A stretch of 44,195 nt of DNA from Treponema sp. (GTDB lineage: Bacteria; Spirochaetota; Spirochaetia; Treponematales; Breznakiellaceae): NCBI GenBank assembly GCA_031286205.1, contig JAITUR010000050.1, positions 1-44,195 on the forward strand. The letters run 5' to 3'. A program made the translations under genes and the position numbers. This document shows, one piece after another, positions 684 to 44,103 of the stretch. The notes beneath the pieces are model-generated. The model searched no databases. It was given only the letters and a program-made list of their open reading frames with translations, and was not told where the DNA came from. The number at the start of each line of letters is the position of its first letter. Position 1 is the stretch's first letter.

Positions 684-712
684 TTGACAGTTTGTTATAT
701 TCTTCATAAACT
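684..712 (+). promoter_or_regulatory. Promoter of glgP, probably leaderless
   Basis: TTGACA at 684-689 and TAAACT at 707-712 are separated by 17 bases. Six bases separate the -10 from the ATG at 719, so transcription should begin at or next to the start codon. No Shine-Dalgarno sequence is present. Confidence 0.6.
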
Positions 713-718
713 CATAAT

Positions 719-3259
719 ATGAATATATCCACATATACAGTTAAACCAAAACTTCCCCCGGTCTTGGAGCCGCTGGAAGAGATTGCCAACAATCTTTGGT
801 TATCATGGAATTATGACGCGGTTCAGTTGTTTATTAGACTGGACTATGATTCTTGGCTTCTTTCCAAACAGAGCCCCGTAAGGACTCTTGGTATGGTAAG
901 CCAGGAAAGGCTTGCAAAAACTGCCGTAGACGACTCTTATCTTGCGGCTCTTAAGGAAGTAAACGACCGGTTTCAGGACTATAAAAAAGGCGAAACATGG
1001 TATCGCGGCGACCACAAAGAAGTCGTAGCCTATTTCTCCATGGAATACGGCATGGACGCATCCTTGCCTATCTATTCCGGCGGCTTGGGTATCCTTTCCG
1101 GGGATCACATGAAAACTTCTTCGGATTTGGGACTGCCTCTTGTGGGTATTGGACTATTGTACCGGCAGGGTTATTTTAAACAAATGTTAAATGCCGACGG
1201 TTTTCAGCAGGAAGGATACCCCGAAAACGACTGGTATAATATGCCCGTAGAATTAAAAAACGGCAAAGACGGCCAACCCCTTAAAATATCTGTTGATCTT
1301 GCAGGCAGCCAGGCTGTTGCCCAAATTTGGGAAGTAAAAGTCGGCCGCTCCTCTCTGTATCTGCTTGATACCAATATCGAAGAAAATACTCAGGATATTC
1401 GCAATGTTACAGCCGCTCTTTATGGCGGCGACAAGGAAACCCGTATGCAACAGGAAATTCTGCTTGGCATTGGCGGTATCCGCGCCTTGCGTGCGTTAGG
1501 TATCAATCCTGCAGCTACCCACATGAACGAAGGGCACTCCGCATTCCTTGGTCTTGAACGAGTCCGCGAAGTTATGGAAGAAAAAGGTTTTACCTTTAAC
1601 GAAGCCCTGGAAGCAGTTTGGCCTACAAATATTTTTACAACCCATACGCCCGTTCCCGCAGGACACGAGCGTTTCGAAATTACCATGATGGACAAATATT
1701 TCCGTTCGTGGCCCCAAGTTCTTGGCATTTCCTGGAAAGACTTCCTTGCCCTTGGCAGGATTCATGCCGGCGATGAGCGCGAAACATTCTGTATGACAGT
1801 GCTTGCCCTAAAAATGGCTGCGTATGCCAATGGTGTTGCCAGACTGCATGGTGTTGTTTCCCGCGATATGTGGAAAGATCTTTGGCCGGGACTTCCTCTT
1901 AGCGAAGTGCCGATCGCCCATGTTACAAACGGCGTTCACCCGCGTACATGGATTTCTTCCGGTATGCTGGATTTATTGGATCGATACTTTGGTCCGCACT
2001 TCGAAGATAAACCGACAGATTTAGAAGTTTGGGAGCGCATGGACAGAATCTCTGACGAAGAATTGTGGCGTACCCACGAGCGCCGCCGTGAACGGCTGGT
2101 TGCCTTTGTCCGTGAACGAATGTACGAGCAGTACAAGCGGACAGGTGTTGCGGGAAACCGTATGCGCCAGGCAGAAGATGCATTATCTCCCTATGCGCTT
2201 ACTCTTTGTTTTGCACGCAGGTTTGCAACTTACAAGCGCGGCAATTTACTTCTGCGCGATCCTGAACGCCTGCTTCGACTGGTAAGGGATAACGACCGCC
2301 CTGTTCAGTTGATATTTGCCGGAAAGGCGCACCCGCACGACATTCCCGGTAAAGAGCTGATCCGCGAAATTATTCACTTTGCGGATAAATACGATGTTTC
2401 CAGCCGTATTGTATTCGTAGAAAATTACGATATGAATGTAGGCAAATATTTAACCTCCGGCGGCGATGTGTGGCTTAACACTCCGCGCCGTCCTATGGAA
2501 GCATCCGGCACTTCCGGCATGAAAGCCGCAATGAACGGCGTGCTTAACTGTTCAATTTTGGACGGCTGGTGGGACGAAGCCTATAACCCGGAAGTTGGCT
2601 GGGCAATAGGGCATGGCGAAGAATATCTTGATGAAAAACTGCAGGACGATGTAGAAAGCAAAGCACTCTACGATTTACTGGAAAGGGAAATTGTTCCGCT
2701 GTTTTATCAGAGAGGCCGCGACGGTCTCCCCCGTGAATGGATAAAGCGCATGAAAGAGTGCATGAAGCAGATTGGTCAATCAATGTCGTTCCATCGTACA
2801 TTGATGGATTACTCCAATATGTTCTACTTCCCTGCACTGGAAAATTACCGCAGAATTGTAAAAGATAACTATGCTGTATCAAAATCGCTTGCAAGCTATT
2901 TTGCTAAATTGCAGCAATCATGGGGCAGTTTAAAGATTGCCAAGATTGAATCTAATGCAAAGCCGGTAATGCAGCGCGGAGATACGCTTACAGTTACGGC
3001 GTTTATCGATCTTGGAACAGTAAAACCCGAAGAAGTGCTTGTAGAGTTGTACTACGGCAATATCACCAGTTCCTTGCACGAAATAACCGATGCCAATAAA
3101 ACAGAAATGAAGTGGATAAAAAGCGAAGGCAGCCTGAATCTGTATCAGATATGTGTTGAATGTAACGATACAGGTATGCAGGGACACACAGTGCGTATAT
3201 TGCCCAAACACGAAGCATTGGTGCATCCGTACAGGTCCGGATTTATTAAGTGGGCGTAA
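719..3259 (+). CDS. glgP: Alpha-glucan (glycogen/maltodextrin) phosphorylase, GT35
   Basis: This cytoplasmic, PLP-dependent enzyme releases glucose-1-phosphate from glycogen or maltodextrin. At 846 residues it has the size and layout of the bacterial alpha-glucan phosphorylase subfamily with an N-terminal DUF3417 region (about residues 10-110). Conserved blocks are easy to see: MEYGMDASLPIYSGGLG, NEGHSAFL, THTPVPAGHERF, VTNGVHPRTW, CFARRFATYKR, FAGKAHPHD and the PLP site EASGTSGMKAAMNG, whose lysine is about residue 602. The gene has its own promoter and no ribosome site; the start is fixed by the -10 spacing and the lack of a better ATG. It stands alone between a terminator and the preQ1 riboswitch. 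Product confidence is high; choice between glycogen and maltodextrin as main substrate is open. Confidence 0.96.
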   Translation: MNISTYTVKPKLPPVLEPLEEIANNLWLSWNYDAVQLFIRLDYDSWLLSKQSPVRTLGMVSQERLAKTAVDDSYLAALKEVNDRFQDYKKGETWYRGDHKEVVAYFSMEYGMDASLPIYSGGLGILSGDHMKTSSDLGLPLVGIGLLYRQGYFKQMLNADGFQQEGYPENDWYNMPVELKNGKDGQPLKISVDLAGSQAVAQIWEVKVGRSSLYLLDTNIEENTQDIRNVTAALYGGDKETRMQQEILLGIGGIRALRALGINPAATHMNEGHSAFLGLERVREVMEEKGFTFNEALEAVWPTNIFTTHTPVPAGHERFEITMMDKYFRSWPQVLGISWKDFLALGRIHAGDERETFCMTVLALKMAAYANGVARLHGVVSRDMWKDLWPGLPLSEVPIAHVTNGVHPRTWISSGMLDLLDRYFGPHFEDKPTDLEVWERMDRISDEELWRTHERRRERLVAFVRERMYEQYKRTGVAGNRMRQAEDALSPYALTLCFARRFATYKRGNLLLRDPERLLRLVRDNDRPVQLIFAGKAHPHDIPGKELIREIIHFADKYDVSSRIVFVENYDMNVGKYLTSGGDVWLNTPRRPMEASGTSGMKAAMNGVLNCSILDGWWDEAYNPEVGWAIGHGEEYLDEKLQDDVESKALYDLLEREIVPLFYQRGRDGLPREWIKRMKECMKQIGQSMSFHRTLMDYSNMFYFPALENYRRIVKDNYAVSKSLASYFAKLQQSWGSLKIAKIESNAKPVMQRGDTLTVTAFIDLGTVKPEEVLVELYYGNITSSLHEITDANKTEMKWIKSEGSLNLYQICVECNDTGMQGHTVRILPKHEALVHPYRSGFIKWA

Positions 3260-3270
3260 AACTGTAATCA

Positions 3271-3311
3271 TGGCAGTATCCTAGAACACCTGCCTTATCA
3301 AAACAAGGAGT
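3271..3311 (+). promoter_or_regulatory. preQ1-I riboswitch controlling yhhQ translation
   Basis: P1 is GGCAG (3272-3276) paired with CTGCC (3290-3294). The loop contains CCTAG and ACACC, as in the preQ1-I consensus. It is followed by an A-rich tail that closely resembles the tail of the Thermoanaerobacter tengcongensis class I aptamer and ends in the ribosome site AAGGAG (3305-3310). Loop bases TCCT (3279-3282) can pair with AGGA (3306-3309), forming the P2 pseudoknot that hides the ribosome site when preQ1 binds. The ATG at 3316 follows. The downstream gene is a known target family of this riboswitch. A translational OFF switch is inferred. Confidence 0.82.
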
Positions 3312-3315
3312 TAAT

Positions 3316-4014: not shown

Positions 4015-4052
4015 TTGTAAAATAAACATATAAAGATTTTAAGGAGATGGAA

Positions 4053-5548: not shown

Positions 5549-6314
5549 GAGCCGCCCCCTTTTCCTTGCGGATTATTTCTTTGGCAAGAGCCTGATACGC
5601 TCTTGCGCCCGGGCATTGTGGGTCGTAAAGAGAAATAGGCATTTCGCAGGAAGGCGCTTCGGAAAGACGGACATTACGCGGAATAATCGTATTTAGCACT
5701 TTATCTTTGTAGGTTGCGCTTACATCTTTAATGACATCGTTTGCAAGCTTTGTTCTGGGGTCGTACATTGTAAAGAAGATACCCCCAATTCTAAGCGATG
5801 GGTTTAGCTCTTTTTGCACAAGCTTGGTTGTATGTAAAAGCTGCCTTAATCCTTCCAGCGCAAAGAATTCGCACTGCATGGGAATAAGCATAATGTCGGC
5901 AGCCGCAAGACCATTCATGGTTAGCTGTCCCAAGCTGGGAGGACAATCTATCAATATAAAATCGTATTTGTTTTTGATAGGGGCAAGGGCTTTTTTTAAA
6001 AAGAAGTTGCGTTCTTTTTCTTCGATTAATTCGACAGCGGCGCCGGACAATTCGTGGTCGGCAGGGATTACATCCAGATTTTTTACCTCGGATTTTCTGG
6101 TTGCCTTTTCTGCGGTAGTGCTGCCGGCAAGCAGTTCGTAAATTCCGGGCTTGGCAGGCTTTGCGCCTACACCGCTGGAGAGATTTCCTTGAGGGTCAAA
6201 GTCCACCAAAAGTACGGATTTCCCGGCTTCCGCCATGAATGCCCCAATATTGATTGTAGAAGTGGTTTTGCCTACCCCGCCTTTTTGGTTAACAAATACA
6301 CATATAAGTCCCAT
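5538..6314 (-). CDS. parA: Chromosome partitioning ATPase ParA (Soj)
   Basis: ParA is a deviant-Walker ATPase that binds DNA non-specifically and is stimulated by ParB to move origins apart. The sequence begins MGLICVFVNQKGGVGKTT, where KGGVGKT is the deviant Walker A motif, followed by VLLVDFDPQGNLS (Walker A') and FILIDCPPSLG (Walker B). About 258 residues is the normal length for chromosomal Soj-type ParA. Two in-frame ATGs lie six bases apart (6320 and 6314). The promoter (TTGAAA 6344-6349, 17 bases, TAAACT 6321-6326) puts the transcription start at the second, so I chose 6314 and a leaderless transcript. It is the first gene of parA-parB and diverges from the CBS/ATPase gene. Confidence 0.95.
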   Translation of the reverse strand: MGLICVFVNQKGGVGKTTSTINIGAFMAEAGKSVLLVDFDPQGNLSSGVGAKPAKPGIYELLAGSTTAEKATRKSEVKNLDVIPADHELSGAAVELIEEKERNFFLKKALAPIKNKYDFILIDCPPSLGQLTMNGLAAADIMLIPMQCEFFALEGLRQLLHTTKLVQKELNPSLRIGGIFFTMYDPRTKLANDVIKDVSATYKDKVLNTIIPRNVRLSEAPSCEMPISLYDPQCPGARAYQALAKEIIRKEKGAAHGS

Positions 6315-6320
6315 AGCCAT

Positions 6321-6349
6321 AGTTTAGCATTGATATAAGAGCGTTTCAA
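6321..6349 (-). promoter_or_regulatory. parA promoter, overlapping the opposite promoter
   Basis: On the minus strand TTGAAA (6349-6344) and TAAACT (6326-6321) are 17 bases apart. The base seven positions after the -10 is the A of the ATG at 6314. It overlaps the plus-strand promoter at 6330-6358. Confidence 0.6.
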
Positions 6350-6358
6350 TAGTATCAT
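6330..6358 (+). promoter_or_regulatory. Promoter of the CBS/ATPase gene, probably leaderless
   Basis: TTGATA (6330-6335) and TATCAT (6353-6358) are separated by 17 bases. Eight bases then precede the ATG at 6367. There is no ribosome site. It interlocks with the parA promoter on the other strand. Confidence 0.55.
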
Positions 6359-6366
6359 AATAGAAT

Positions 6367-7314
6367 ATGAATGAGGCAAAAAAAAAGGAAGACATCCCCA
6401 TAAGTACTGTGGATTCGCCCGCGGTTGTTTTGGAGCTGATCCATCAACTTAAGGTAAAAGATGTAATGACAACCGCAGTTCTTACCAGCGACAAAAAACA
6501 AACCCTGCGGCATATTCAGGCTCTCTTGCGGGAAAACAAGGTAGCCGGCGTTCCCATTGTAGAAGACGATAAATTGATAGGGCTGGTCTCTACAGAGGAC
6601 ATTATCCATGCCCTGGAAAAAGGCTATATCGATGCTACTGCCGAAGAACGAATGACCAAGAATGTTATCCATCTGCAAGATGATATGCCCCTTTCTTTTG
6701 CAATTTCGTATCTTAATAAGTATCGATACGGAAGGTTTCCCGTATTAAATAAAAACAACGAATTGGTTGGGATTCTTACTTCCAGCGATGTTATTCGTAC
6801 TTTGTTAATAGAAATGAACCGCGAGGTGTTACGATTGGAAAAGCTGCAAAAAACTACAAACCCGGAAGTTGCATCGAAATATTTAGAGATGGAATTTACT
6901 ACCGCGCACTACGATATGGAAGCTGCCGGAAGGGCATCGACAGAAATAAAAAAGGCGCTTAAACAGCGTAACTTTGATCCTAAATTGATTCGGCGAATTG
7001 CCATTGCTTCTTACGAGTTGGAGATTAATCAGGTAGTGCACTCCGATGGCGGGGTAATTCGTTATTCCATTTTGCCGGACAAGGTTGTAATTACCGCGGA
7101 AGATACCGGTCCCGGTATTGAAGATGTCAGCCAGGCGCTTAAGGAAGGGTATTCCACCGCAAACGAATATGTCCGCTCGCTTGGTTTTGGCGCGGGCATG
7201 GGTCTTGCAAATACAAAACGAGTCTCCGATGAATTTACGATAGAGTCTGTTGTCGGCAAGGGCACTCTGGTGCGCTCGGTTGTTTTTGTCCATTCGTCCA
7301 AAGACGATAATTAG
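6367..7314 (+). CDS. CBS-domain pair fused to a GHKL (RsbW-like) ATPase
   Basis: Two CBS domains (about residues 33-90 and 95-150; VKDVMTTAV, GVPIVEDDKLIGLVST, RFPVLNKNNELVGILTSSD) form an adenine-nucleotide-sensing module. They are followed by a GHKL ATPase domain (about 175-315) with N-box ASYELEINQVVHS, G1-type ITAEDTGPGIED and a G2-type GFGAGMGLANTKR. There is no histidine-phosphorylation domain, so it resembles an anti-sigma or serine kinase rather than a sensor histidine kinase. It is followed eight bases later by a DRTGG protein and then, convergently, a PHP phosphoesterase. That trio is familiar from clusters near [FeFe]-hydrogenase genes in anaerobes, but no hydrogenase gene is visible here. 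Substrate and ligand are unknown. Confidence 0.85.
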   Translation: MNEAKKKEDIPISTVDSPAVVLELIHQLKVKDVMTTAVLTSDKKQTLRHIQALLRENKVAGVPIVEDDKLIGLVSTEDIIHALEKGYIDATAEERMTKNVIHLQDDMPLSFAISYLNKYRYGRFPVLNKNNELVGILTSSDVIRTLLIEMNREVLRLEKLQKTTNPEVASKYLEMEFTTAHYDMEAAGRASTEIKKALKQRNFDPKLIRRIAIASYELEINQVVHSDGGVIRYSILPDKVVITAEDTGPGIEDVSQALKEGYSTANEYVRSLGFGAGMGLANTKRVSDEFTIESVVGKGTLVRSVVFVHSSKDDN

Positions 7315-7322: not shown

Positions 7323-7661
7323 ATGAAAATATCGGAAATAGCCGCCGCCATTAATGCGGAAATTTGTCAGTGTAACGAAGATGTCGATGTTTCCTGCGCC
7401 TACACTTCCGATCTGCTTTCCGATGTAATTGCCCATGCCAAAGAAGGCGGCGCCCTTATTACAATTCAGGCGCACAAAAACACCGTAGCGGTATCCTCTC
7501 TTGCAAATATTTCCGTAATAATTATCTGCAACTCCCGCCCTCTCCCCGACGATATGCTGGAAGCAGCCAAAGACGAGGACATTGCTATTATCCGCACGAA
7601 GGAGAATCAATTTAATGTGTCGGGTAAATTGTGGGCACTGTTTTCGTCAAACACTAATTAA
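7323..7661 (+). CDS. Stand-alone DRTGG-domain protein
   Basis: The 112-residue protein is a single compact alpha/beta domain of the DRTGG type, a domain also found at the N-terminus of some HPr kinases and next to CBS domains. Visible blocks are MKISEIAAAINAEI, a central CAYTSDLLSDVIAHAKEGGAL segment (first 20 residues quoted in part) and IIICNSRPLPDDM. A GGGG-type ribosome site lies five bases before the ATG, eight bases after the CBS/ATPase stop, so the two are co-transcribed. Its last eight bases overlap the end of the convergent PHP gene. A ligand-binding or adaptor role for the neighbouring ATPase is an inference. Confidence 0.75.
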   Translation: MKISEIAAAINAEICQCNEDVDVSCAYTSDLLSDVIAHAKEGGALITIQAHKNTVAVSSLANISVIIICNSRPLPDDMLEAAKDEDIAIIRTKENQFNVSGKLWALFSSNTN

Positions 7662-8388
7662 TATTTTTTAATGCTGATGCAAAAACCGCCATGTCCATAT
7701 CCGTGCCGGGTCCGTTGGGCTGCAATTCTTCCTCGCTGATATTAAGTTTGAAGGGGCGGCGGCCGATGTGTTCGGGATAGTGCGCGTCCGATGAAGTAAT
7801 TAAGGGGTAAGCCTTTGTGTCCAATGGCAAGTCGTTTACAGTGGGCGGTATGCGGACACATTCAAGAGCAGCCCAAGGTCCGTCTACTACAACGCCAAGC
7901 TGGCTTGTCATGGAAAACGCATAACGATCTACATGGGCGGGAATTACAATGCCGCCGTATTCGGAAACCTTTGCGCCGATATTGTCTACCGATATATCCA
8001 GCGGGTTTACAAGATAGTATTCTACCTCGCCTTCGATATTGTCGTCTTCATCGACATAAACCTGGTCGCCTGTTTTTTCCGGAATGTTCAAAAATGGCGT
8101 TAATATGGAATAGGCATATTCGTTAAATGCCATGCAGGCATTAAGATTTGCAAATAGACACAGTACATGGATTTCTTCGGTGGTTGTTGCTTCCATTCCA
8201 AAAACAGGAATAATGCCAAATTGCGGAGACAGTTTTGCAAAAGCAGGGCAGTTAAGGCTGGAATTATGATCTGTTATAGCCATAAGTTTGATACCTCTGG
8301 TTTTCCCTAATTCCAGTATTCGTCTTGGAGATAGTTCCAGAGATCCGCAGGGGGAAAGGCAGGAATGGTTATGCAAATCGATGAGCAT
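7654..8388 (-). CDS. PHP-domain phosphoesterase
   Basis: The 244-residue protein is a PHP-superfamily metal-dependent phosphoesterase. Metal ligands are evident in DLHNHSCLSPCG (HxH motif), AITDHNSS and the C-terminal SSDAHYPEHIGRR. I chose the ATG at 8388 over an upstream TTG at 8403: TATAAT (8400-8395 on the minus strand) ends six bases before that ATG, which suggests a leaderless start, and the domain begins immediately. It converges with and overlaps the DRTGG gene, completing the CBS/ATPase-DRTGG-PHP trio. The natural substrate is unknown; the family includes nucleotide and histidinol phosphatases. Confidence 0.85.
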   Translation of the reverse strand: MLIDLHNHSCLSPCGSLELSPRRILELGKTRGIKLMAITDHNSSLNCPAFAKLSPQFGIIPVFGMEATTTEEIHVLCLFANLNACMAFNEYAYSILTPFLNIPEKTGDQVYVDEDDNIEGEVEYYLVNPLDISVDNIGAKVSEYGGIVIPAHVDRYAFSMTSQLGVVVDGPWAALECVRIPPTVNDLPLDTKAYPLITSSDAHYPEHIGRRPFKLNISEEELQPNGPGTDMDMAVFASALKNIN

Positions 8389-8394
8389 AGTGTT

Positions 8395-8400
8395 ATTATA
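8395..8400 (-). promoter_or_regulatory. -10 element of the PHP gene, probably leaderless
   Basis: A perfect TATAAT on the minus strand ends six bases before the ATG at 8388. The -35 is weak and no ribosome site is present. Confidence 0.55.
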
Positions 8401-8469
8401 CAATAAATTGCCGATAGATTTGTAGGTGTGTTCTATAAGCTAGAGGCTGGAATTTCAACACCCAAGCCC

Positions 8470-9831
8470 CTATGGATCAAACCTCGAAGGAACAGGAATT
8501 TGTACAAGATTAATATAATGCCCGGGATACCGTCTGTTAAAGCCGCTGAATGATGATTCTGTTGCGCTTTCAAAAACTACAACTCTAAAATTACCGTTTT
8601 CATCAAAGTAGGGAATAAGCGCGGCTATATGATAATATTGCCTTAGGCGGGGAGATCCGCGCGGATTTTGAGCGGTTACTGCTGATCCTATTTCATTATT
8701 AATTGCTGCAAGGTAAAAAGAAAATGGGTAATCAATTGCAAGAGTGTATAACAAGGCATGAAGCCCTTCAAAACCATAACCGGCTTCCGATAAAAATCCG
8801 GGGTAATTATGAATAACAAAAGATCGATTTTCGTTTACTAAAATCTGCGAAAAATTACTGCCGCGGACTTCGAACTCTTCCAAAGCCCGATGAGATGAAG
8901 AACGCAAAGTTCCGTTTGCCTCTGCGGCAAGATTGCGTATCCAGTCAAGACCGAAATGCGGATCTCGTCTATGATCAAGCGGGATTACAATGCCTTCGCT
9001 GGGTCTGTTTTCCCAGTTTGCGGTAAAAGACGAACCCCTGTCTCCAAACGGCATTTTTAATGCCGAAACGGACAGTCGTTTTCCTGTAATCGGACGCAGA
9101 CAGCCGTCAATTAACCATTTAGCAAAACCGGAACAGTTAACCCCCGCCGAACCAGAAGGCTGCCTTTCGAGTGTTTCTATAAAAATAAAATTTCCGTTTT
9201 CATCTATTGCGCCGTCGTCCGCATAACGAATTTCCCCAAGCCGCTGCCGAACCTGAGTTATAAATCTTTGGCTGTCCCTGTACATTGCCAGATCAGGATC
9301 AAAATATTTACGCGGGAATTTGTCGCCCGCAAGCCGTAAAATTTCATTTAACTGCATGGTGTAAAGGCGTTCGAAAGGAACAGCAATGGGTAAAGACCTT
9401 GCCATAAAACCGCCGTACAGAACCACATCCATTTGGGCTTTATCCGTGCTTAGGGGTTTTAAGTCAATATATGTAAATTGATCGCTTCTAAGGAAAATCC
9501 TGATAAGCACGCCTGCTCCCGTATCCCTGCGGCGGGTAAGCATCCATGACCCTTGAGTCCAGCCAGGAAATTCCCCCAGAGAATTTTCGCGGGAAAGAAG
9601 CACCATTATTTCGTTTCTGCCGTTAACCGCGCGGACTTCCACTTTTTCCCCGGAAGGCAGTTGTTCTATGGCGGAGCGGCGCGACAGTACATTGGCAGGG
9701 GTATCATAAAACCAGGCATCTCTTAGCCTGATTCTTAGCTGCGAATCGTCGGATATACGGGCAACCGGTACATCGGCAAAGAGCGGAAAAACGGCTGCGA
9801 AAAGTATCAATTTAAATAGAAATTTTGACAT
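8470..9831 (-). CDS. Exported papain-like (NlpC/P60-related) hydrolase candidate
   Basis: The 453-residue protein has a signal peptide (MSKFLFKLILFAAVFPLFA). An SH3-like first half (about 25-110, with LRDAWFYDTP and GWTQGSWML) precedes a domain containing VNCSGFAKWLIDG, whose cysteine is about residue 233. This strongly resembles the catalytic cysteine motif of NlpC/P60 and related papain-fold amidases. A downstream YYHIAALIPYF (His about 401) followed by VVVFESATESSF could supply the histidine and third residue. The large insert between Cys and His is unlike classical NlpC/P60 enzymes. A periplasmic peptidoglycan-related hydrolase is plausible but inferred. It diverges from the HtrA gene; no clear ribosome site precedes its ATG. 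Confidence 0.65.
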   Translation of the reverse strand: MSKFLFKLILFAAVFPLFADVPVARISDDSQLRIRLRDAWFYDTPANVLSRRSAIEQLPSGEKVEVRAVNGRNEIMVLLSRENSLGEFPGWTQGSWMLTRRRDTGAGVLIRIFLRSDQFTYIDLKPLSTDKAQMDVVLYGGFMARSLPIAVPFERLYTMQLNEILRLAGDKFPRKYFDPDLAMYRDSQRFITQVRQRLGEIRYADDGAIDENGNFIFIETLERQPSGSAGVNCSGFAKWLIDGCLRPITGKRLSVSALKMPFGDRGSSFTANWENRPSEGIVIPLDHRRDPHFGLDWIRNLAAEANGTLRSSSHRALEEFEVRGSNFSQILVNENRSFVIHNYPGFLSEAGYGFEGLHALLYTLAIDYPFSFYLAAINNEIGSAVTAQNPRGSPRLRQYYHIAALIPYFDENGNFRVVVFESATESSFSGFNRRYPGHYINLVQIPVPSRFDP

Positions 9832-9888
9832 ATATACTGTTATTATCGGTGTTTTTGTGTTAATATGTAAGCAAGGAGAAGGAAGGAA

Positions 9889-11097
9889 ATGCGGTTATAC
9901 AGTCGCGGACAGGTAATAATTTTTTCGGCAGTAAGCGGGCTTATTGTTCTGCTTTTGGCAATTGGATTTGGTATTTTTAAGCCGTCCCCGGTAAGCGAAA
10001 ACACGCCTGTTCTTTCTCAGGCTCAGGAAACAGAGGTTAAGTTAAATCAATCGGACTATCTGCTTCTTAATACCCAGGATTTTGTTCAATATTCCGACAG
10101 CGAAAGGGAAAATATTGCCATTTACGAAAGATTTAATTCTGCGGTTGTAAATATTACCACAGAAATAATGGCAATTGACTGGTTTCTTCAGCCCGTGCCC
10201 CAGGAAGGCTCTTCCGGCTCCGGCTCTATTATCGATACAAGCGGTTATGTTCTTACAAATAACCATGTTATAAACAGGGCGCACAGGATTTTTATTAACC
10301 TTGCGGATGGAAGCCAGTTTGAAGGCACAGTGGTAGGAACCGATCCGGAAAGCGATTTAGCTGTCTTAAAGTTTGATCCTCCGCAGGGTATGACACTGGT
10401 TGCAATTCCTTACGGCGATTCTTCCAATTTAATGGTTGGGCAGAAAGTTTTGGCAATAGGCAATCCATTTGCTCTTGAACGCACTTTGACGGTTGGAATT
10501 GTTTCCGGTTTAGGACGGCCAATTCAGGTTTCCAGAAACCGTGTTATACGCAATATGATTCAGACCGATGCCTCGATTAACCCCGGAAATTCCGGCGGTC
10601 CGCTTTTGGATACTCAGGGAAGGATGATTGGAATTAACACAATGATTTATTCGACATCCGGCGGTTCTGTCGGCATTGGTTTTGCCGTTCCTGTAAATAC
10701 CGCAAAGCGTGTTGTTTCCGAAATAATTCAGCATGGCAAGGTACGCAGAGGCTGGGTCGATGCAACTGTCGTGCAGTTATTTCCAAGCCTTGTTAATTAC
10801 GCAAAGCTGCCTGTAAGTTCCGGGCTTCTTGTTTCCCGCACCAAGCGGGGCGGGTTAGCTGAAAGAGCGGGACTGCGTCAGGGTACAGAACCTGTGCAGT
10901 ATGGCAGAAGCGTAATCTATCTTGGCGGCGATATAATAACAGCTGTTAATGGGGTAAGAACAAACACTCTTGCAGATTTATATTCAGCATTGGAATCCTC
11001 CCGCCCCGGAGATGTTATTAGAATAGATATTATTCGCGACGGCAACTCTGTTACTTTACAGGTAACGCTCGCAGACAGGGAAGAAGTACTTAACTAA
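9889..11097 (+). CDS. HtrA/DegP-like serine protease with one PDZ domain
   Basis: This 402-residue S1C-family protease has an N-terminal membrane anchor (about residues 8-30). A trypsin-like domain follows with the triad His126 (LTNNHVINRA), Asp156 (ESDLAVLKF) and Ser235 (NPGNSGGPLLD). One C-terminal PDZ domain (about 300-395; SGLLVSRTKRGGLAERAGL, GDIITAVNG) completes it. It would act in periplasmic protein quality control. An AAGGAG-rich ribosome site (GGAGAAGGAAGG) precedes the ATG. A second, two-PDZ HtrA lies at 16955-18439, so this organism has at least two. The gene ends in an 84-base convergent gap before mutS2. Confidence 0.93.
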   Translation: MRLYSRGQVIIFSAVSGLIVLLLAIGFGIFKPSPVSENTPVLSQAQETEVKLNQSDYLLLNTQDFVQYSDSERENIAIYERFNSAVVNITTEIMAIDWFLQPVPQEGSSGSGSIIDTSGYVLTNNHVINRAHRIFINLADGSQFEGTVVGTDPESDLAVLKFDPPQGMTLVAIPYGDSSNLMVGQKVLAIGNPFALERTLTVGIVSGLGRPIQVSRNRVIRNMIQTDASINPGNSGGPLLDTQGRMIGINTMIYSTSGGSVGIGFAVPVNTAKRVVSEIIQHGKVRRGWVDATVVQLFPSLVNYAKLPVSSGLLVSRTKRGGLAERAGLRQGTEPVQYGRSVIYLGGDIITAVNGVRTNTLADLYSALESSRPGDVIRIDIIRDGNSVTLQVTLADREEVLN

Positions 11098-15323: not shown

Positions 15324-15641
15324 TTAATCGGGTGCCGGAAGGTTCTCTTCTTTGCCAAAAAGATTGTCAAATGCCGCTCTGGCAGATTCCGCTTTTTCCC
15401 GCTCTTTATACTGCCCGTCACCTGGGCGGTTTTTATCGTTTAAAGAAAACCAGTCGCAAAAATTGGCGCGTTCTTTGTCCGGCTGCATTTCTGCTCCGCT
15501 TTCCTTGCAGTCTCCGCGTCCGCCGGGCAGAAAAAAAAGGCAGTTTTTGCATGAACGCAGATCTTTGCCGCAGCTATCGCATCTGGCTGAACGGCCTATA
15601 GGCCTGGGAGCTGTTATCGGTTTTCCGCAATACCAACACAT
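15324..15641 (-). CDS. Small multi-zinc-ribbon protein
   Basis: The 105-residue product starts MCWYCGKPI and contains CxxC pairs at CWYC, CDSC and CKNC plus additional Cys (DCKES, FCDWF), so it probably binds two or more zinc ions. The C-terminal half is charged and likely helical. I do not recognise a characterised function; similar short zinc-ribbon proteins sit beside housekeeping genes in spirochaetes. It is the first gene of the murI-rsgA-mutS2 operon, two bases upstream of murI. Its own promoter has a textbook 17-base spacing and ends six bases before the ATG, with no ribosome site, so translation of the whole operon may begin leaderless. Confidence 0.75.
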   Translation of the reverse strand: MCWYCGKPITAPRPIGRSARCDSCGKDLRSCKNCLFFLPGGRGDCKESGAEMQPDKERANFCDWFSLNDKNRPGDGQYKEREKAESARAAFDNLFGKEENLPAPD

Positions 15642-15647
15642 ACTGTT

Positions 15648-15676
15648 ATTGTAGCCGTATAGGGATTGGCTGTAAA
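15648..15676 (-). promoter_or_regulatory. Promoter of the zinc-ribbon/murI/rsgA/mutS2 operon
   Basis: TTTACA (15676-15671) and TACAAT (15653-15648) on the minus strand are 17 bases apart. The -10 ends six bases before the ATG at 15641. This is one of the clearest leaderless arrangements in the window. Confidence 0.65.
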
Positions 15677-19937: not shown

Positions 19938-19966
19938 TTTACTTTTTTTACAATAAATAATATGCT
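19938..19966 (+). promoter_or_regulatory. Promoter of the OmpA-family gene, probably leaderless
   Basis: TTTACT (19938-19943) and TATGCT (19961-19966) are separated by 17 bases. The -10 ends six bases before the ATG at 19973 and there is no ribosome site. Confidence 0.5.
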
Positions 19967-19972
19967 ATAACT

Positions 19973-20974
19973 ATGATACGAAAATATGATTTTTATAGGG
20001 TAATCAGAAGTATCTTACTGGTTTTGGTAGTTTTTAACATAACCGGCTTACTGTATACCCAGACTAATTTGCCAAATACGGAAACTCCGTATATTTCTCT
20101 TGACGGAGGGGTAGGATCAAGCGATGTTCTTGTCGATGGAATGTCTTTTTGCATTCTTTTGAATCCCAAATTAAGCCTTACACCCGGGTTTATGATTGGT
20201 TCAAAAAATATTCTGCATATCAGCACCGATGACATTATTGCTTTGGAAGCGCAGGTGTTTTTTCGCTGGAATTTTCTTCGTTTAGGTTCTTCCATTACTA
20301 CGGATATTTTTGTCCAGGGAGGCGTAGGTTTTCTTGGAGCGTTTAAGGGGTCTGATGTAAGAGATTCCCGCGCATCTTTGCTGGCTGATTTTACGGCAGG
20401 GGTTACCATACCATTGGCTTCCGGCTGGTATATCGAACCTTCTATTCGCGGCGGATATCCGTTTATTGCCGGGGCTGCAATAACAGCCGGGTATAAATTC
20501 CCTTTAACAAAAAAAGTTGAATTTCATGGACTTGAATATTCGGAAGTAATAAAAAATCTTCCTCCAAACGAAATTATAAGAAGAATTGTAATTAACCAGG
20601 TTGAGTATATAATTTTTGCACCGGATTCAGCCAGGTTTAACATTGGAGTTGATCGCGACGCACAGGCGCTTAACGAACTGGTTATTCTTCATGTTGCGCA
20701 AATTTTAAGGGAAAACCCCGACTTCCGTGTCAGGCTGGAAGGTCATGCAAATCCGGTAACGCACGCAACCGGCGAAATGGAAGAACTTGTTGCGCTAAGT
20801 ACTGCCAGGGCAAATGAAGTAGCCAGACAGCTAAGGCAAAAAGGTGTAAGAGAATCGCAGATTGTTGTTATAGGATATGGGGGAGCCAGAATACTTGCCG
20901 ACACTACCGATCATGATCACTGGAACATGAACCGCCGTGTAGAATTAATTGTTATTCAGGTTGATACCGAATAA
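19973..20974 (+). CDS. OmpA-family outer-membrane/peptidoglycan-binding protein
   Basis: The 333-residue protein has an N-terminal hydrophobic signal (about 8-30). A strand-rich domain (about 35-185) looks like a small barrel. The C-terminal OmpA domain (about 205-330) contains IIFAPDSARFNI, RVRLEGHANPV, ALSTARANEVARQLRQKGV and NRRVELIV, the usual peptidoglycan-binding landmarks. It probably anchors the envelope to the cell wall. It heads a cluster with an InlB-repeat lipoprotein 15 bases downstream and a membrane metallophosphoesterase. Confidence 0.88.
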   Translation: MIRKYDFYRVIRSILLVLVVFNITGLLYTQTNLPNTETPYISLDGGVGSSDVLVDGMSFCILLNPKLSLTPGFMIGSKNILHISTDDIIALEAQVFFRWNFLRLGSSITTDIFVQGGVGFLGAFKGSDVRDSRASLLADFTAGVTIPLASGWYIEPSIRGGYPFIAGAAITAGYKFPLTKKVEFHGLEYSEVIKNLPPNEIIRRIVINQVEYIIFAPDSARFNIGVDRDAQALNELVILHVAQILRENPDFRVRLEGHANPVTHATGEMEELVALSTARANEVARQLRQKGVRESQIVVIGYGGARILADTTDHDHWNMNRRVELIVIQVDTE

Positions 20975-37114: not shown

Positions 37115-37570
37115 TTAATCAGTTACCTCTATCGTAAAGAAGGTGCTATGAAGAAGCCCGTCTATTTCCAGAATTGTCTCTAAATTGATTAAATAAGCCC
37201 CTTTTATCTCGAACATATTGTGTAAAGATGTATCAAGGGTATCGCCCGAGTCCAGTAGAATTGAATTCCATAACCATGTTATTGAAGAGAAAATGTCGCT
37301 ATTTGTAACTTTTATGGAATTTGAGCTGCCAAGCGGGATTGTAACAATTTCTCCTTTTTTTAACGGGCTTCCATCGTCCAATTCAAGTTCCGGTACCCCT
37401 AGCCCATTATCGGTATCGGAGTCATTATTGTTGTTTTCGTTGACTTTTTGGACTTTTTCGTCCGATAAAAATCCTTGGATATCAGTTGGACTTGGACAAG
37501 AGGTAAATGTAAGTGCAATTAATGTTAAAAAAGCACTAAATAGTAAATAAAGAAGAGTTTTTCTTACCAT
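37115..37570 (-). CDS. Small lipoprotein, related to the C-terminal domain of the paralogues
   Basis: I place the start at the ATG at 37570 (MVRKTLLYLLFSAFLTLIALTFTSC), giving 151 residues with a lipobox FTSC. An upstream in-frame codon would add a non-signal-like leader that runs through the promoter. After a short Asn/Asp-rich linker the mature part (about 65-150) resembles the C-terminal domain of the two larger lipoproteins (VTNSDIFSSITWLWNSILL, FEIKGAYLINLETIL, FFTIEVTD). It may be an assembly partner or a remnant of the same family. TATATT lies seven bases before the ATG and no ribosome site is visible, so it looks leaderless. Confidence 0.75.
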   Translation of the reverse strand: MVRKTLLYLLFSAFLTLIALTFTSCPSPTDIQGFLSDEKVQKVNENNNNDSDTDNGLGVPELELDDGSPLKKGEIVTIPLGSSNSIKVTNSDIFSSITWLWNSILLDSGDTLDTSLHNMFEIKGAYLINLETILEIDGLLHSTFFTIEVTD

Positions 37571-37577
37571 AATATAT

Positions 37578-37605
37578 AATATACTAAAATAGGCGAAAAA
37601 GTCAA
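37578..37605 (-). promoter_or_regulatory. Promoter of the small lipoprotein gene, probably leaderless
   Basis: On the minus strand TTGACT (37605-37600) and TATATT (37583-37578) are separated by 16 bases. Seven bases then precede the ATG at 37570. No ribosome site is seen. Confidence 0.5.
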
Positions 37606-37616: not shown

Positions 37617-37645
37617 TTGAAAAAATCAGTTGACTGCATTATAGT
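37617..37645 (+). promoter_or_regulatory. Promoter of the exported protein at 37653, probably leaderless
   Basis: TTGAAA (37617-37622) and TATAGT (37640-37645) are separated by 17 bases, with seven bases to the GTG at 37653. The TTGAAA could be misread as an in-frame TTG start codon. Confidence 0.55.
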
Positions 37646-37652
37646 TAAATTA

Positions 37653-38726
37653 GTGAAAAAACTTGTAAATTTGATGCTAATATCGATGTTTTTCCTCGCT
37701 GCCCACAATTTATACGCCCAAATACCCAGCGAATCCCGGTTTTATGTCCTGCCAATAACAGGCTCCGGCACTAAACAGGATAAGGCCTTTTTATATGACA
37801 GAATTAACTATGAGGTTGCTTTTCAGAATTATTTGCTGGTTTGGGCAAGAAGAGAAAGCGATTATATCTTTAGGGGAACAATTCAATTTGTATCCGGCGA
37901 ATATCCGGAATATATTCTTAATATAAGGTTGATGAGCAGCCGTACAAATAAGGTACTTTCAGAAAAACAACTGATTTTTTATGATATAAACGACAGTGAC
38001 GATATTAGTCAGGGGATAACCCGGCTAATGACGGATTTCTTTTTGCAGGTACCGGATGAAACAGAGGCAGAAAGACCTCCGTCTCGTGTAGCTCAAAGAC
38101 CGCCATCCCAGGAACCGGAACCCGCTGTACCAAACAGGCGGCAAAGGGCGGAAAGACCGGAACAGGAGTCGACTTTTGTGGATCGATCCAACGAAAGACT
38201 GGCTTTTTCCGACGATTGGCGCGATAAACTGTTTTTCTTTGAGTACAGTCTAATATGGGCTCCCAGGGAATATGTAGAAAATGATTCTATAAATTATATA
38301 AATCTGGGGTTGAATTTTGCCCTGGAAATGCAATTTTTAAATTTTTTAGCCATAGAAGTAGGCGCGCAGTTTATCCAGGAAACATCGGGAGGGAACAAAA
38401 ACCGCGACCTTTTACTGGAATTTCCTGCGGCATTAAAAATTGTGTTAAAACCCGGAAAAGCTTTTATGTTCGAGATTTACGGAGGAGTATCTTTTAATTT
38501 TATTTCATTTATGAATGTGGTTACACCTTCCCGTTATTCAGTTTTTGGCGGATTGGAAATTTGCTTAAAAACCAATTCCGGTATATTTGTTATAGAACCC
38601 CGTTATGCTATGGATATAAATAATTCCAATCTGGGATCTGGTTTGGAGCATAAACGCAAGATGGTGCAGGTTGGCATAGGCTATAAAACAGGTCTTTTTA
38701 CCAAGCTTGTAAGAAAACAAGATTAA
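37653..38726 (+). CDS. Exported protein with Pro/Arg linker and C-terminal barrel-like domain
   Basis: The product (about 357 residues) starts at GTG 37653 and gives a clean signal peptide, MKKLVNLMLISMFFLAAHNLYA followed by QIPSES. An alpha/beta N-domain (about 25-135) precedes a Pro/Arg/Glu-rich linker (about 137-175, ERPPSRVAQRPPSQEPEP). The C-terminal domain (about 190-357) consists of alternating strands such as LGLNFALEMQFLNFLAIEVG and FEIYGGVSFNF, typical of a membrane barrel. The upstream TTG at 37617 was rejected because it falls on the -35 box. I do not recognise a family; a linker-tethered outer-membrane protein is inferred. Confidence 0.72.
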   Translation: MKKLVNLMLISMFFLAAHNLYAQIPSESRFYVLPITGSGTKQDKAFLYDRINYEVAFQNYLLVWARRESDYIFRGTIQFVSGEYPEYILNIRLMSSRTNKVLSEKQLIFYDINDSDDISQGITRLMTDFFLQVPDETEAERPPSRVAQRPPSQEPEPAVPNRRQRAERPEQESTFVDRSNERLAFSDDWRDKLFFFEYSLIWAPREYVENDSINYINLGLNFALEMQFLNFLAIEVGAQFIQETSGGNKNRDLLLEFPAALKIVLKPGKAFMFEIYGGVSFNFISFMNVVTPSRYSVFGGLEICLKTNSGIFVIEPRYAMDINNSNLGSGLEHKRKMVQVGIGYKTGLFTKLVRKQD

Positions 38727-38735
38727 TTGTAAAAT
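38707..38735 (+). promoter_or_regulatory. Promoter of the GyrA/ParC-type gene, probably leaderless
   Basis: TTGTAA (38707-38712) and TAAAAT (38730-38735) are separated by 17 bases. The -10 ends six bases before the ATG at 38742. No ribosome site is present. The -35 lies inside the previous coding region. Confidence 0.5.
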
Positions 38736-38741
38736 AAAGTA

Positions 38742-40661
38742 ATGGCATACATAAAAAATATTTTTGATCGTAATTTTCTTGAATATGCGTCTTATGTAAT
38801 AAAAGACCGCGCCATTCCCGATCTGGAAGACGGACTTAAACCTGTTCAAAGAAGAATTCTTCATTCGCTTTTTGAAATGGACGACGGAAAGTTCCACAAG
38901 GTAGCAAATGTTACCGGGCACTGCGCAAAGTATCATCCTCATGGCGAGCAGTCCATAAACCCCGCTCTTGTTGTGCTTGCAAACAAAGAATTGTTTATTG
39001 ACAGGCAGGGAAACTTTGGAAACCTTTATACAGGGGACGATGCTGCCGCTCCCCGTTATATCGAATGCCGCATAACACAGCTTGCCAAGGATATTTTTTA
39101 TAATCCCAAGTTAACCGAATGGGCGGGTTCTTACGACGGCCGTAATAAAGAGCCGGTTCTTTTTCCCGCAAAAATTCCTGTGGTAATTGTTTTGGGTGTA
39201 GAAGGAATCGCGGTAGGAATGTCCACAAAAATTTTACCGCATAATGTTATAGAAGTTATAGAAGCGGAAATTGCCTGTCTTAAAGGGCAAAAGTTCGAGC
39301 TGTATCCCGATTTTCCCACCGGCGGCTTTGTCGATGTCTCCGAGTATCGCGGCGGAAACGGCAAGGTATTGGTGCGCGCAAAATTGGATACGACAGACCC
39401 AAAACGAATCCTTATAACCGAGCTTCCTTTTGGTTCCACTACAGAAAGTATAATTAACAGTATAGATAACGCGGCAAAAGCCGGCAGGCTTAAAATACAG
39501 GGCATAAATGATTTTACAACCGACAAGGTAGAAATAGAAATTAAACTTGCCCGCGGTGTATATGCGCAGGAAACAATCGATGCTCTTTTTGCGTTTACCG
39601 AATGTGAACAGTCAATCTCTGTAAATCTTTTGGTAATTAAAAACGGTTATCCTACAATAATGACAGTAAACGAAATTATCCGTTACCACGCAAAACAAAT
39701 TGTAAAAATTCTTACAAAAGAATTGGAGCTGGAAAAGAAAGAACTTTTAGACAAACTGCACCTTCGTACTTTGGAGCGTATTTTTATAGAAGAACGAATT
39801 TACAAAGGTATAGAAAAAATGAAAACCGCCAAGGGTGTTCAGGATGCGGTAATTGGCGGGTTTAAGCCTTTCTTAAAAGAAGTTGGCGCAAGAAAAATTA
39901 CGGAAGACGATGTAGACCACCTCTTGCGAATTCCAATCCGCAGAATTTCGTTATACGACATAAACAAGGCAAAAGACGAGATGGAGCAGATAAAGGCAAG
40001 AATAAAGGAAATAAACGCTCATCTTAAAAATATTACGGCGTATTCTGTATCGTTCTTAAAAAGTATTATTGCAAAAATAAAAGCTAACCCGGAAATTGGA
40101 GGGGGAGCGCGCAAATCTGTTGTCGGCTCTTTTGACAAAGTTGTTGCAAAAGAAGTTGTCCGCCGCGATGTGGAATTAAAATACGATGCAAAATCCGGCT
40201 ATCTTGGCACTAATGTAAGCGGTTCTAAAGTTTGCGAAGTATCCCCATTCGACCGCATATTGGTAGTCCGAAAAAACGGAATGTTTACAGTAATGGATTT
40301 ACCGGAAAAAACATTTGCGGGCGCGGATGCCTGGTGGATAGGGGTAGCGGACAAGGATATTCTTGCAAAAACAATATTTACAATTATTTACAAAGATAAA
40401 GAAAACGGCTTCCCCTGCATTAAACGATTTATTATCGAAGGCTGGATTATAAACAAGGACTATTTCCTTGTCCCGGATGGAGCGCAGATTCTTCATGTAG
40501 ATACAAGATCAAAGTTTACCTTTACCGTAAAATACAAACCAAAACCACGGCTTAAAGTATTGGAAGAAGGTTTTAAGGCGCAGGATTACAATGTTCGCGG
40601 GCTAAAAGCGGGCGGGATTCGGCTTGCTGCCAAAGAAGCGGACAGGGCGGCGGCAAAGTAG
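38742..40661 (+). CDS. Type IIA topoisomerase A subunit (GyrA/ParC-type), short C-terminus
   Basis: The 639-residue protein is the breakage-reunion subunit of a type IIA topoisomerase. It has ASYVIKDRAIPDLEDGLKPV, GHCAKYHPHGEQSI, the quinolone-region-like GNFGNLYTGDDAAAPRYIEC with the catalytic Tyr, and GIAVGMSTKILPHN. The usual six-bladed beta-pinwheel is much reduced: after the coiled-coil region (about 330-460) only about 180 residues remain, without a recognisable GyrA-box. This resembles the ParC/GyrA-2 type of Bacteroidetes and Chlamydiae. No B subunit lies nearby. The start is set by the promoter; no ribosome site is seen. Confidence 0.88.
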   Translation: MAYIKNIFDRNFLEYASYVIKDRAIPDLEDGLKPVQRRILHSLFEMDDGKFHKVANVTGHCAKYHPHGEQSINPALVVLANKELFIDRQGNFGNLYTGDDAAAPRYIECRITQLAKDIFYNPKLTEWAGSYDGRNKEPVLFPAKIPVVIVLGVEGIAVGMSTKILPHNVIEVIEAEIACLKGQKFELYPDFPTGGFVDVSEYRGGNGKVLVRAKLDTTDPKRILITELPFGSTTESIINSIDNAAKAGRLKIQGINDFTTDKVEIEIKLARGVYAQETIDALFAFTECEQSISVNLLVIKNGYPTIMTVNEIIRYHAKQIVKILTKELELEKKELLDKLHLRTLERIFIEERIYKGIEKMKTAKGVQDAVIGGFKPFLKEVGARKITEDDVDHLLRIPIRRISLYDINKAKDEMEQIKARIKEINAHLKNITAYSVSFLKSIIAKIKANPEIGGGARKSVVGSFDKVVAKEVVRRDVELKYDAKSGYLGTNVSGSKVCEVSPFDRILVVRKNGMFTVMDLPEKTFAGADAWWIGVADKDILAKTIFTIIYKDKENGFPCIKRFIIEGWIINKDYFLVPDGAQILHVDTRSKFTFTVKYKPKPRLKVLEEGFKAQDYNVRGLKAGGIRLAAKEADRAAAK

Positions 40662-40716
40662 ATTTGTTAAGGTGTGATCTTACTTGCGGGGGTAAAACGA
40701 GCGTTTTCTATAGGTC

Positions 40717-40760: not shown

Positions 40761-40770
40761 AAACTGCCGA

Positions 40771-40776
40771 TATAAT
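40771..40776 (+). promoter_or_regulatory. -10 element of the NlpC/P60 gene, probably leaderless
   Basis: TATAAT ends five bases before the ATG at 40782; a second TATAAT overlaps it and abuts the ATG. The -35 is weak. No ribosome site is present. Confidence 0.45.
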
Positions 40777-40781
40777 ATAAT

Positions 40782-41936: not shown

Positions 41937-42283
41937 TTTTTATCCAGCCATTTTTTAACTTCGGCTAAAGCACCTTCCGCTTGTTTTAAGAAAGCTTCGT
42001 TTTCGGATTGCAAACCGGATATATCGCCGGCTTTTGCCATTTCTTCCAATTTGCGGGCTTTTGCTCTTAGTTCTTCCGCTCCAATACTTGCGCAGGTTCC
42101 TTTTAAGTTGTGCATGGCGGCGGCATAGTTTGCCAATGTTTCCGAAGATACATTGCGAAGCTTGTCCAGTACCGCCGGTACATTTGCCAGCCACGCTCGC
42201 AAAACAGTTAAATAGTTGTTTTCATCGCCGTCAAACAGATTAAGTCCTGTAACTGTATCTATACCAGGTATTTTAATAGCCAT
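41933..42283 (-). CDS. Histidine phosphotransfer (HPt) domain protein
   Basis: The 116-residue protein is a stand-alone HPt domain. The phosphorylatable His58 lies in MHNLKGTCASIGAEEL. The remainder is a four-helix bundle pattern. It would relay phosphate between a hybrid kinase and a response regulator. It is downstream of another HPt gene with an 84-base gap that contains a possible promoter (TTGCTT, 17 bases, TAATAT on the minus strand). Its kinase is not in the window. Confidence 0.88.
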   Translation of the reverse strand: MAIKIPGIDTVTGLNLFDGDENNYLTVLRAWLANVPAVLDKLRNVSSETLANYAAAMHNLKGTCASIGAEELRAKARKLEEMAKAGDISGLQSENEAFLKQAEGALAEVKKWLDKN

Positions 42284-42367
42284 TTATAATCTCTTTTATC
42301 TCTTTACTGTTATTTTCCAACAATTAAATATTACACTATAGAATCAAAATAAGCAATAGGCATAACA

Positions 42368-42979: not shown

Positions 42980-42990
42980 ATTAATCCTTA

Positions 42991-44067
42991 TTAAAAATTA
43001 ATTTTTTTAAATTCGTCGGACAGGCTGACAAAAAGATCCACTAAATCGGGATCAAACTGGGTTCCGCGGCCTTCGCTTATTATCCGTACTGCTTCTTCGT
43101 GGGTAAAAGGCTTTTTATACGGGCGCTTGGAAATTAAGGCATCGTAAACATCGGCAAGAGACATCATTCTTGCTTGCAGAGGAATTTCATTGCCTTTTAA
43201 ACCTTCGGGATACCCTTTTCCGTCCCATCTTTCATGATGCCCATATGCAAGTGTTTTGGCATAATCCAGGAAAGTTTGATTCGGAACCATACCTTGCAGA
43301 CTTTCCAGAAGTATTTTTCCGTATATGGTGTGCATTTTCATTATGTCGAATTCTTCGTCTGTAAGCCTTGCTTTTTTTAGAAGAATATTATCGCTTGTTT
43401 TAATTTTTCCAATATCATGGAGAAGGGCGGACTTTAAGAATGCTTCTACATCCCAATCTTTTAACTCGCTCTTGTACATTTCGTTATTTCCCATTTCATC
43501 CAAAAGCAGTTTTAGATACTGTTGAACTCGCTCTACATGCTGCCCTGTATCTTCGTCCCGGAATTCTACCATTTCTGCAGTCCACAGAATAATTGCGTTT
43601 TTTAGCTGAGTTAAATCATCTGTCCGTTCATCAACCATTTTAGTAAGATTTTCGTTAAATTCACGCAGTTCATGGTTTTGCGATTGTATAAGCAAGTGTA
43701 ATTCTATTCTTTTTAGCAAAAGCGGCGGCGAAAAGGGCTTAATTATATAATCTATAGCGCCAAGGGAAAGCCCCAAAAATTCGCTTTCGGACTCGCTTTT
43801 CCCTGTTAGGAATATTACGGGAATATCTGCTGTTCTAGGATTATCTTTTATGGCTTTGATAGTGTCATATCCGCTCATAACCGGCATTTCTACATCCAAT
43901 AGTATAAGATCCGGCTTGCTTTTTTCCAGCATTATCAGGAGTTTTTCGCCTGATGGTATAGTAACCACAGTGTATTTCTCTTGTAAAGCAGCTTTTCCTG
44001 TATTTAGATTAACGGGATTGTCATCAACTAAAAAAATACAGCTTTTTTGCTCTTTTAAATTTGCCAT
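42991..44067 (-). CDS. Response regulator with HD-GYP domain (probable c-di-GMP phosphodiesterase)
   Basis: The 358-residue protein has an N-terminal REC domain (about 9-125) with phosphoacceptor Asp58 (LILLDVEMP) and the conserved Lys in YIIKPF. A coiled linker (about 130-165) leads to an HD-GYP domain (about 170-355) with LLHDIGKI and YGHHERWDGKGYPEG, the residues needed for cyclic-di-GMP hydrolysis. Phosphorylation from the adjacent HPt proteins is likely. TATTAT ends six bases before the ATG at 44067, with no ribosome site, suggesting a leaderless mRNA. It diverges from the partial gene at 44151. Confidence 0.92.
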   Translation of the reverse strand: MANLKEQKSCIFLVDDNPVNLNTGKAALQEKYTVVTIPSGEKLLIMLEKSKPDLILLDVEMPVMSGYDTIKAIKDNPRTADIPVIFLTGKSESESEFLGLSLGAIDYIIKPFSPPLLLKRIELHLLIQSQNHELREFNENLTKMVDERTDDLTQLKNAIILWTAEMVEFRDEDTGQHVERVQQYLKLLLDEMGNNEMYKSELKDWDVEAFLKSALLHDIGKIKTSDNILLKKARLTDEEFDIMKMHTIYGKILLESLQGMVPNQTFLDYAKTLAYGHHERWDGKGYPEGLKGNEIPLQARMMSLADVYDALISKRPYKKPFTHEEAVRIISEGRGTQFDPDLVDLFVSLSDEFKKINF

Positions 44068-44076
44068 ACTACCATA

Positions 44077-44103
44077 ATAGCATATTTAATAAAAAAATGC
44101 TAT
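44077..44103. promoter_or_regulatory. Dyad in the divergent promoter region (possible operator)
   Basis: ATAGCAT (44077-44083) and ATGCTAT (44097-44103) are perfect inverted repeats 13 bases apart. They overlap the -35 positions of both the HD-GYP promoter (-10 at 44079-44074, minus) and the plus-strand promoter with TATAAT at 44101-44106. Confidence 0.45.

Follow-up and report, generated by a model that had tools for sequence, protein, structure and literature searches.

TA-led genes of bacteria, which are preceded by a -10-like TANNNT hexamer, were surveyed by Zheng et al. in 2011. Here, genes of this type are described in Treponema sp. (order Treponematales), based on a contig of 44,195 nucleotides (JAITUR010000050.1 of assembly GCA_031286205.1; the whole of this stretch is hereafter called the window) and on its relatives. 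An earlier note on this DNA had proposed that eleven genes of the window, lacking a Shine-Dalgarno (SD) sequence and carrying a -10-like hexamer that ends 5-8 bases ahead of the start, are transcribed into leaderless mRNAs, and that this class coexists with genes initiated at SD sites.

In the 2011 survey, TANNNT some 10-12 bp upstream of the start codon was taken as the -10 box, the genes behind it being without SD, and 6 of 18 Spirochaetes genomes were predicted to contain 1.8-6.9% leaderless genes; its main text does not name Treponema (PMC3160421). In Leptospira interrogans, differential RNA sequencing placed primary transcription starts at most 10 bases from the start codon in 430-450 genes, and exactly at it in about 170-184 (PMC5243855); leaderless initiation, which the earlier note called known in other bacteria, is known in a distant spirochaete, too. 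Leptospira shares the phylum of the window and belongs to another order; its starts were measured while ours are inferred, and sigma-54 sites are the only motif that the paper reports, whereas -10 and -35 boxes are clear here. The same source quotes 1174 leaderless mRNAs for Deinococcus deserti, and an AT-rich bias at -20 to -10 has been discussed as possible Pribnow boxes (PMC5397173). In the open-licence literature, judged by titles and abstract openings, no paper evidently deals with leaderless mRNA in Treponema. The leaderless kind of gene is already known; what the present analysis contributes is its gene-resolved conservation in Treponematales. The genes of the survey were classed within single genomes (PMC3160421), whereas here single genes were traced through relatives, and leaderless expression in this order gains comparative support gene by gene.

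A peak of -10-like hexamers ahead of start codons

The window is one contig of a 2.34-Mb assembly of 126 contigs and, together with 650,700 further bases, it constitutes the own-genome sample (694,895 bases). Codon usage served to call the genes, whose starts were picked blind to upstream motifs (motif-blind), the choice of start resting on homology and coding score only. The sample contains 555 genes, including 508 with a usable upstream region and neighbour and 247 that are first-of-operon (divergent, or behind a gap of at least 50 bases). A -10 hexamer was scored as TANNNT, with d being the number of bases between it and the start codon, and a -35 box by its matches out of 6 to TTGACA, accepted at 4/6 or more. 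A search of the assembly revealed no 16S rRNA from which the anti-SD of this genome could be read.

Counting -10 hexamers relative to start codons, as the earlier note had suggested, revealed that TANNNT stands at d5-7 before 58 of the 247 first-of-operon genes, with 32.1 expected (p 2e-5). The counts at d5, d6 and d7 were 15, 27 and 16, compared with a mean of 10.7 per position at d25-55 (sd 2.7, maximum 16). The peak persists without the genes of the window (53 vs 28.3, p 2e-5) and under a looser start rule (18, 29 and 10 at d5, d6 and d7; 225 genes); when any plausible start is allowed, d5-7 is occupied in 39/247 genes, and the other three-base intervals listed in 10-27. Genes lying close behind another gene show no excess (12 vs 11.9 expected), which agrees with the assignment of the leaderless class to first-of-operon genes.

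The peak is also tied to -35 boxes, which accompany 28/58 hexamers at d5-7 and 46/237 at d20-40 (p 1.6e-5), as well as 11/78 at d8-14 and 20/70 at d15-19. With both boxes required, 16 cases were found at d6 and 8 at d7, compared with 1.3 per position at d20-95. TA-led genes genome-wide carry an SD in 0/54 cases, a figure that is partly mechanical, as the box occupies the SD position. In 103/247 first genes neither an SD nor a box at d5-7 was found; with genes called in this way, the genome is thus not fully covered by the two classes.

We consider it highly probable that a minority of first-of-operon genes is leaderless, being transcribed from sigma-70-like promoters that start the mRNA at or next to the start codon, and the class itself is very likely real. 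The position of the transcription start is inferred here, as is the ribosomal mechanism, the latter from general knowledge about leaderless translation. The -10 box of these genes would lie at about -12 to -7 from the A of the start codon, within an ordinary sigma-70-like promoter. This is the textbook placement of a -10 box relative to +1; if the A of ATG is taken as +1, the mRNA behind a box at d6 would begin with the start codon itself. RNA polymerase would start at that A or no more than one or two bases away, leaving an mRNA without room for an SD, and translation would follow the leaderless route, in which 70S ribosomes, or 30S subunits together with initiator tRNA, bind the 5'-terminal AUG. 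SD sites are used by many of the other genes, most of all by those inside operons.

The excess amounts, crudely, to about 26/508 genes, i.e. about 5% of genes, and to about 10% of first-of-operon genes, and for this reason the "systematic use" suggested for the lineage was an overstatement. The former share falls within the range of 1.8-6.9% given for Spirochaetes (PMC3160421), and the marks of TA-led genes recur here, i.e. TANNNT about 10 bp before the start, absence of SD, confinement to first-of-operon genes and a linked -35 box; the last is found for the class as a whole and is missing at three individual genes of the window (PHP, NlpC and HD-GYP). Two further traits were considered. Divergent gaps of at most 60 bp (26/134 vs 2/36 in Escherichia coli, p 0.07) are only suggestive as independent support. 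A pyrimidine at -1 was rejected as a mark of TA-led genes, being found in 81/111 of them and in 114/212 SD genes, but not clearly above genes with neither signal (151/238, p 0.09).

Comparison with other genomes

The same counts were made in other genomes. Seven other genomes of the genus, when pooled, gave 37 vs 17.0 at d5-7 (169 first genes), with -35 boxes in 19/37 vs 32/131 (p 0.002). Individually, G015 was strong (14 vs 4.3), and the pool extended by G032 gave 58 vs 32.4 (311 first genes). In two samples from elsewhere in the order (G021 and G023) 6 cases were found vs 1.4 expected (62 first genes). E. coli K-12 shows no peak (1 vs 5.6; 73 first genes), and plasmid 1 of D. deserti gave 13 vs 2.4 with a peak at d6 (94 first genes), so the method detects a lineage rich in leaderless mRNAs. 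The likeness to this plasmid lies in the d6 peak obtained by the same pipeline; the difference is that -35 boxes at d5-7 are no better there than elsewhere (2/13), and are clear here (28/58).

Genes with a conserved layout

The layout is conserved among orthologues at the zinc-ribbon gene, parA, glgP (in close relatives) and murA, partially at topoisomerase IV, and not at CBS and PHP. Conservation counts are given without p values, as relatives are not mutually independent. For parA, glgP and the zinc-ribbon gene the leaderless layout is strongly suggested.

The zinc-ribbon promoter (15639-15676, reverse strand) consists of TTTACA at 15676-15671 and TACAAT at 15653-15648 (d6, spacer 17), with ATG at 15641. 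TANNNT occurs at d5-7 in 29/29 relatives (22 belong to the same genus, and four other families supply the remaining 7), most commonly at d6 (20 relatives), and an SD word in 3/29. The gene itself (15324-15641) encodes a 105-aa protein with the N-terminus MCWYC, which is present in 35/39 genomes of the order searched and has no Pfam or NCBIfam match.

The parA promoter (6312-6349, reverse strand) is composed of TTGAAA at 6349-6344 and TAAACT at 6326-6321 (d6, spacer 17), with ATG at 6314. Among 63 relatives, 54 have TANNNT at d5-7 (39 of them at d6) and 1 has an SD. Upstream of this gene, CAATAG was observed at -38/-39 from the ATG in 28/62 relatives, overlapping the -35 position, and CTATTG at -38 in 6 (about 6344-6366 in the window); this word is possibly a regulator site or an unusual -35. 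With 10 occurrences vs 40.5 expected, TTCAATAG is under-represented in the own-genome sample.

At glgP, the promoter (684-721, forward strand) includes TTGACA at 684-689 and TAAACT at 707-712 (d6, spacer 17), with ATG at 719. TANNNT was found at d5-7 in 21/32 relatives, d6 being the commonest (18). These are the 21 whose identity is at least 75%, each of which has TTGACA together with TANNNT at d6-7; among more distant relatives the count is 0/11. A terminator-like hairpin (632-661) lies directly upstream of this promoter. The murA gene (L139:16234-17511), located outside the window and picked by its promoter in the own genome, has a box at d5-7 in 22/26 relatives (d6 in 19); the four misses are one member of the genus without a box, one case at d8 and two members of family f3 with AGGAG instead. 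The positions that stand out in column counts of glgP and murA are the -35, the T, A and T within the -10, and -1. The SD-led controls behave differently: parB has a box in 0/57 relatives and an SD in 54, and yhhQ a box in 0/7 and an SD in 6.

The eleven sites of the window

Re-reading of the sites confirmed TANNNT ending 5-8 bases ahead of the start at all eleven genes, with an SD-like word at none of them. The -35 boxes that had been reported for eight were found as well, with 4-6 of 6 matches at a spacing of 16-18; PHP, NlpC and HD-GYP reach at best 3/6. Among the other 35 starts listed in the window (five genes being entered with two alternative starts) TANNNT at d5-8 occurs in 0, and several have, as claimed, a strong AAGGAG (3316, 4047, 9889, 24423, 28743 and 35480). 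At three sites the start had been hand-picked over a longer open reading frame, i.e. parA at 6314 (not 6320), PHP at 8388 (not TTG at 8403) and an exported protein at GTG 37653 (not TTG at 37617). Homology backs the first two, and the start codon of parA is corrected to 6314. With hand-chosen starts, the eleven sites are significant among an assumed 22 first genes (p 2.5e-4) and not among all 46 listed starts (p 0.12); the window by itself is too weak to carry the leaderless claim.

The CBS/ATPase promoter (6330-6369, forward strand) comprises TTGATA at 6330-6335 and TATCAT at 6353-6358 (d8, spacer 17), with ATG at 6367. The box is present in 1/70 relatives and an SD word in 35. This promoter and the divergent one of parA interleave across 46 bp, counted from the longer parA start (6315-6366), and one polymerase should therefore exclude the other. 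In the divergent parA/CBS relatives found the gaps are 64-128 bp long; L060, with 64 bp, likewise lacks an SD and has TATAAT 5 bases before GTG. The PHP gene has TATAAT at 8400-8395 (d6) before ATG 8388 (8386-8400, reverse strand). Its box is not shared, as in relatives the gene directly follows the preceding one, and here it is on the opposite strand. It (7323-8403) is inverted with respect to the CBS-DRTGG-PHP order implied by the upstream sequence of relatives. The leaderless layouts of CBS and PHP would be recent, lineage-specific acquisitions.

For topoisomerase IV subunit A (38707-38744, forward strand), with TTGTAA at 38707-38712 (4/6), TAAAAT at 38730-38735 (d6, spacer 17) and ATG at 38742, conservation appears partial: TANNNT is at d5-7 in 17/28 relatives, the box distance ranges over d6-9 and 8 relatives have an SD word. 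In the NlpC/P60 gene (40766-40784, forward strand), GCCGA at 40766-40770 is continuous with TATAAT at 40771-40776 (d5), followed by ATG at 40782. TANNNT at d5-7 occurs in 7/20 of its relatives, which have in common a GCCGATAAT-like block rather than a TANNNT box; (A/G)CCGATA is near the start in 13/21 of them (40766-40776 in the window; L349-L365). This block resembles the sigma-28 -10 consensus, a reading that was set aside, as a fitting -35 was not seen by eye. GCCGATAA occurs 44 times in the own-genome sample, with about 18 expected.

The OmpA-family gene has a promoter-like region (19938-19975, forward strand) with TTTACT at 19938-19943 (4/6), TATGCT at 19961-19966 (d6, spacer 17) and ATG at 19973, and only 8 sequences, its own included, align near the N-terminus. 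Ahead of the lipoprotein gene (37568-37605, reverse strand), promoter-like TTGACT at 37605-37600 may be combined with TATTAT at 37581-37576 (d5, spacer 18) or TATATT at 37583-37578 (d7, spacer 16), with ATG at 37570; no homologue aligned in the neighbouring loci fetched, and no search of its own was made. The exported protein (37617-37655, forward strand) has promoter-like TTGAAA at 37617-37622 and TATAGT at 37640-37645 (d7, spacer 17) ahead of GTG 37653, its start being uncertain and its relatives too divergent to align. For the HD-GYP response regulator (44065-44079, reverse strand), TATTAT is at 44079-44074 (d6) and ATG at 44067, a start that is not alignable among its many paralogues.

Weighing of the alternatives

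Several observations weigh against leaderless expression of a first-of-operon class. A second TANNNT peak is located at d11 (20 vs 10.7 expected), and the share of ATG starts does not differ between TA-led (50/54) and SD-led genes (84/90). The genus genome G008 is weak alone (7 vs 5.3), and the order samples G019 (11 vs 9.3, 81 first genes; 9/11 nonetheless with -35) and G027 (3 vs 1.9, 40 first genes) show little excess; the trait is uneven across Treponematales. In an underpowered orthologue test on random stretches of relatives (14, then 29 first-of-operon genes), the TA box was kept in 43% of orthologues (5 genes), compared with 81% for SD (11 genes). In the window, the motif-blind starts of 20 first-of-operon genes gave 5 boxes at d5-7 vs 3.9 expected, and among the relatives without a parA box at d5-7, Breznakiella homolactica (L096) and Gracilinema caldarium (L121), both of them named isolates, have it at d10, so a short leader would be present there.

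The weak motif-blind count is what would be seen if AT-rich upstream DNA yielded TANNNT near many starts, from which fitting starts were then selected. The hand choice of three starts, the lack of conservation of the CBS and PHP boxes and scans for the consensus over 20 kb of the window, which gave 43 promoter-like sites vs 40.9 in shuffles and thus no excess, point the same way. As an account of the class, chance is very improbable in view of the peak across the genome, its link to -35 boxes and the fixed distance that is conserved; it may account for the individual boxes of ompA, the lipoprotein, the exported protein at 37653, HD-GYP, PHP and CBS. The start codons might also be wrong, with translation truly beginning downstream behind an SD and the box at an ordinary distance. 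The basis of the start choice, homology and coding score only, leaves room for this, but in relatives of the zinc-ribbon gene, parA, murA and glgP homology extends to residue 1, and a downstream start, which would cost MCWYC of the zinc-ribbon protein its first cysteines, is unlikely; as a general explanation misplaced starts are extremely improbable.

The promoters may, on the other hand, be real and give leaders of a few bases, or further upstream promoters may give leadered mRNAs. Consistent with this are CBS at d8, topoisomerase relatives at d6-9 and the d10 boxes of the two isolates. The commonest distance is, however, exactly d6 in relatives of the zinc-ribbon gene (20), glgP (18), parA (39) and murA (19), which places the canonical start at the A of ATG. 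We regard this alternative as unlikely. Leaderless expression would be conserved at these four genes and newly acquired at CBS and PHP. The two coexisting initiation classes proposed by the earlier note stand on the genome-wide peak, the linked -35 and the conserved distance; the equal standing of its eleven genes does not, as CBS and PHP are lineage-specific and topoisomerase IV is partial. The growth- and segregation-related character that it gave to the leaderless class is conjectural.

It may further be speculated, as a rather doubtful extension, that leaderlessness itself is selected in a few cell-cycle and envelope genes of Treponematales (parA, topoisomerase IV subunit A, murA and the zinc-ribbon gene). 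As their -10 is kept near 6 bases from ATG, to some extent also between families, whereas the bases around it mostly drift, their mRNAs would be a co-regulated class, and, if so, would respond to the state of the ribosome and not to a transcription factor. The near-fixed distance between -10 and ATG makes the zinc-ribbon gene, murA, parA and glgP clean test cases for how the spirochaete ribosome starts on leaderless mRNA, and gene finders that expect an SD may misplace leaderless starts.

Other observations

Relatives of the CBS protein were found at 80 named loci, mostly in metagenome bins labelled Treponema, and include B. homolactica and G. caldarium; Breznakiella is classified in Spirochaetota, order Treponematales, family Breznakiellaceae. 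A plasmid search with this protein returned 171 records, all below 60% identity and none with 80% coverage. The host habitat is presumably the termite gut, by analogy with similar bins. Finally, the 57-bp divergent gap between a 453-aa protein without a match and htrA (8470-9889) holds CCGATAATAAC.

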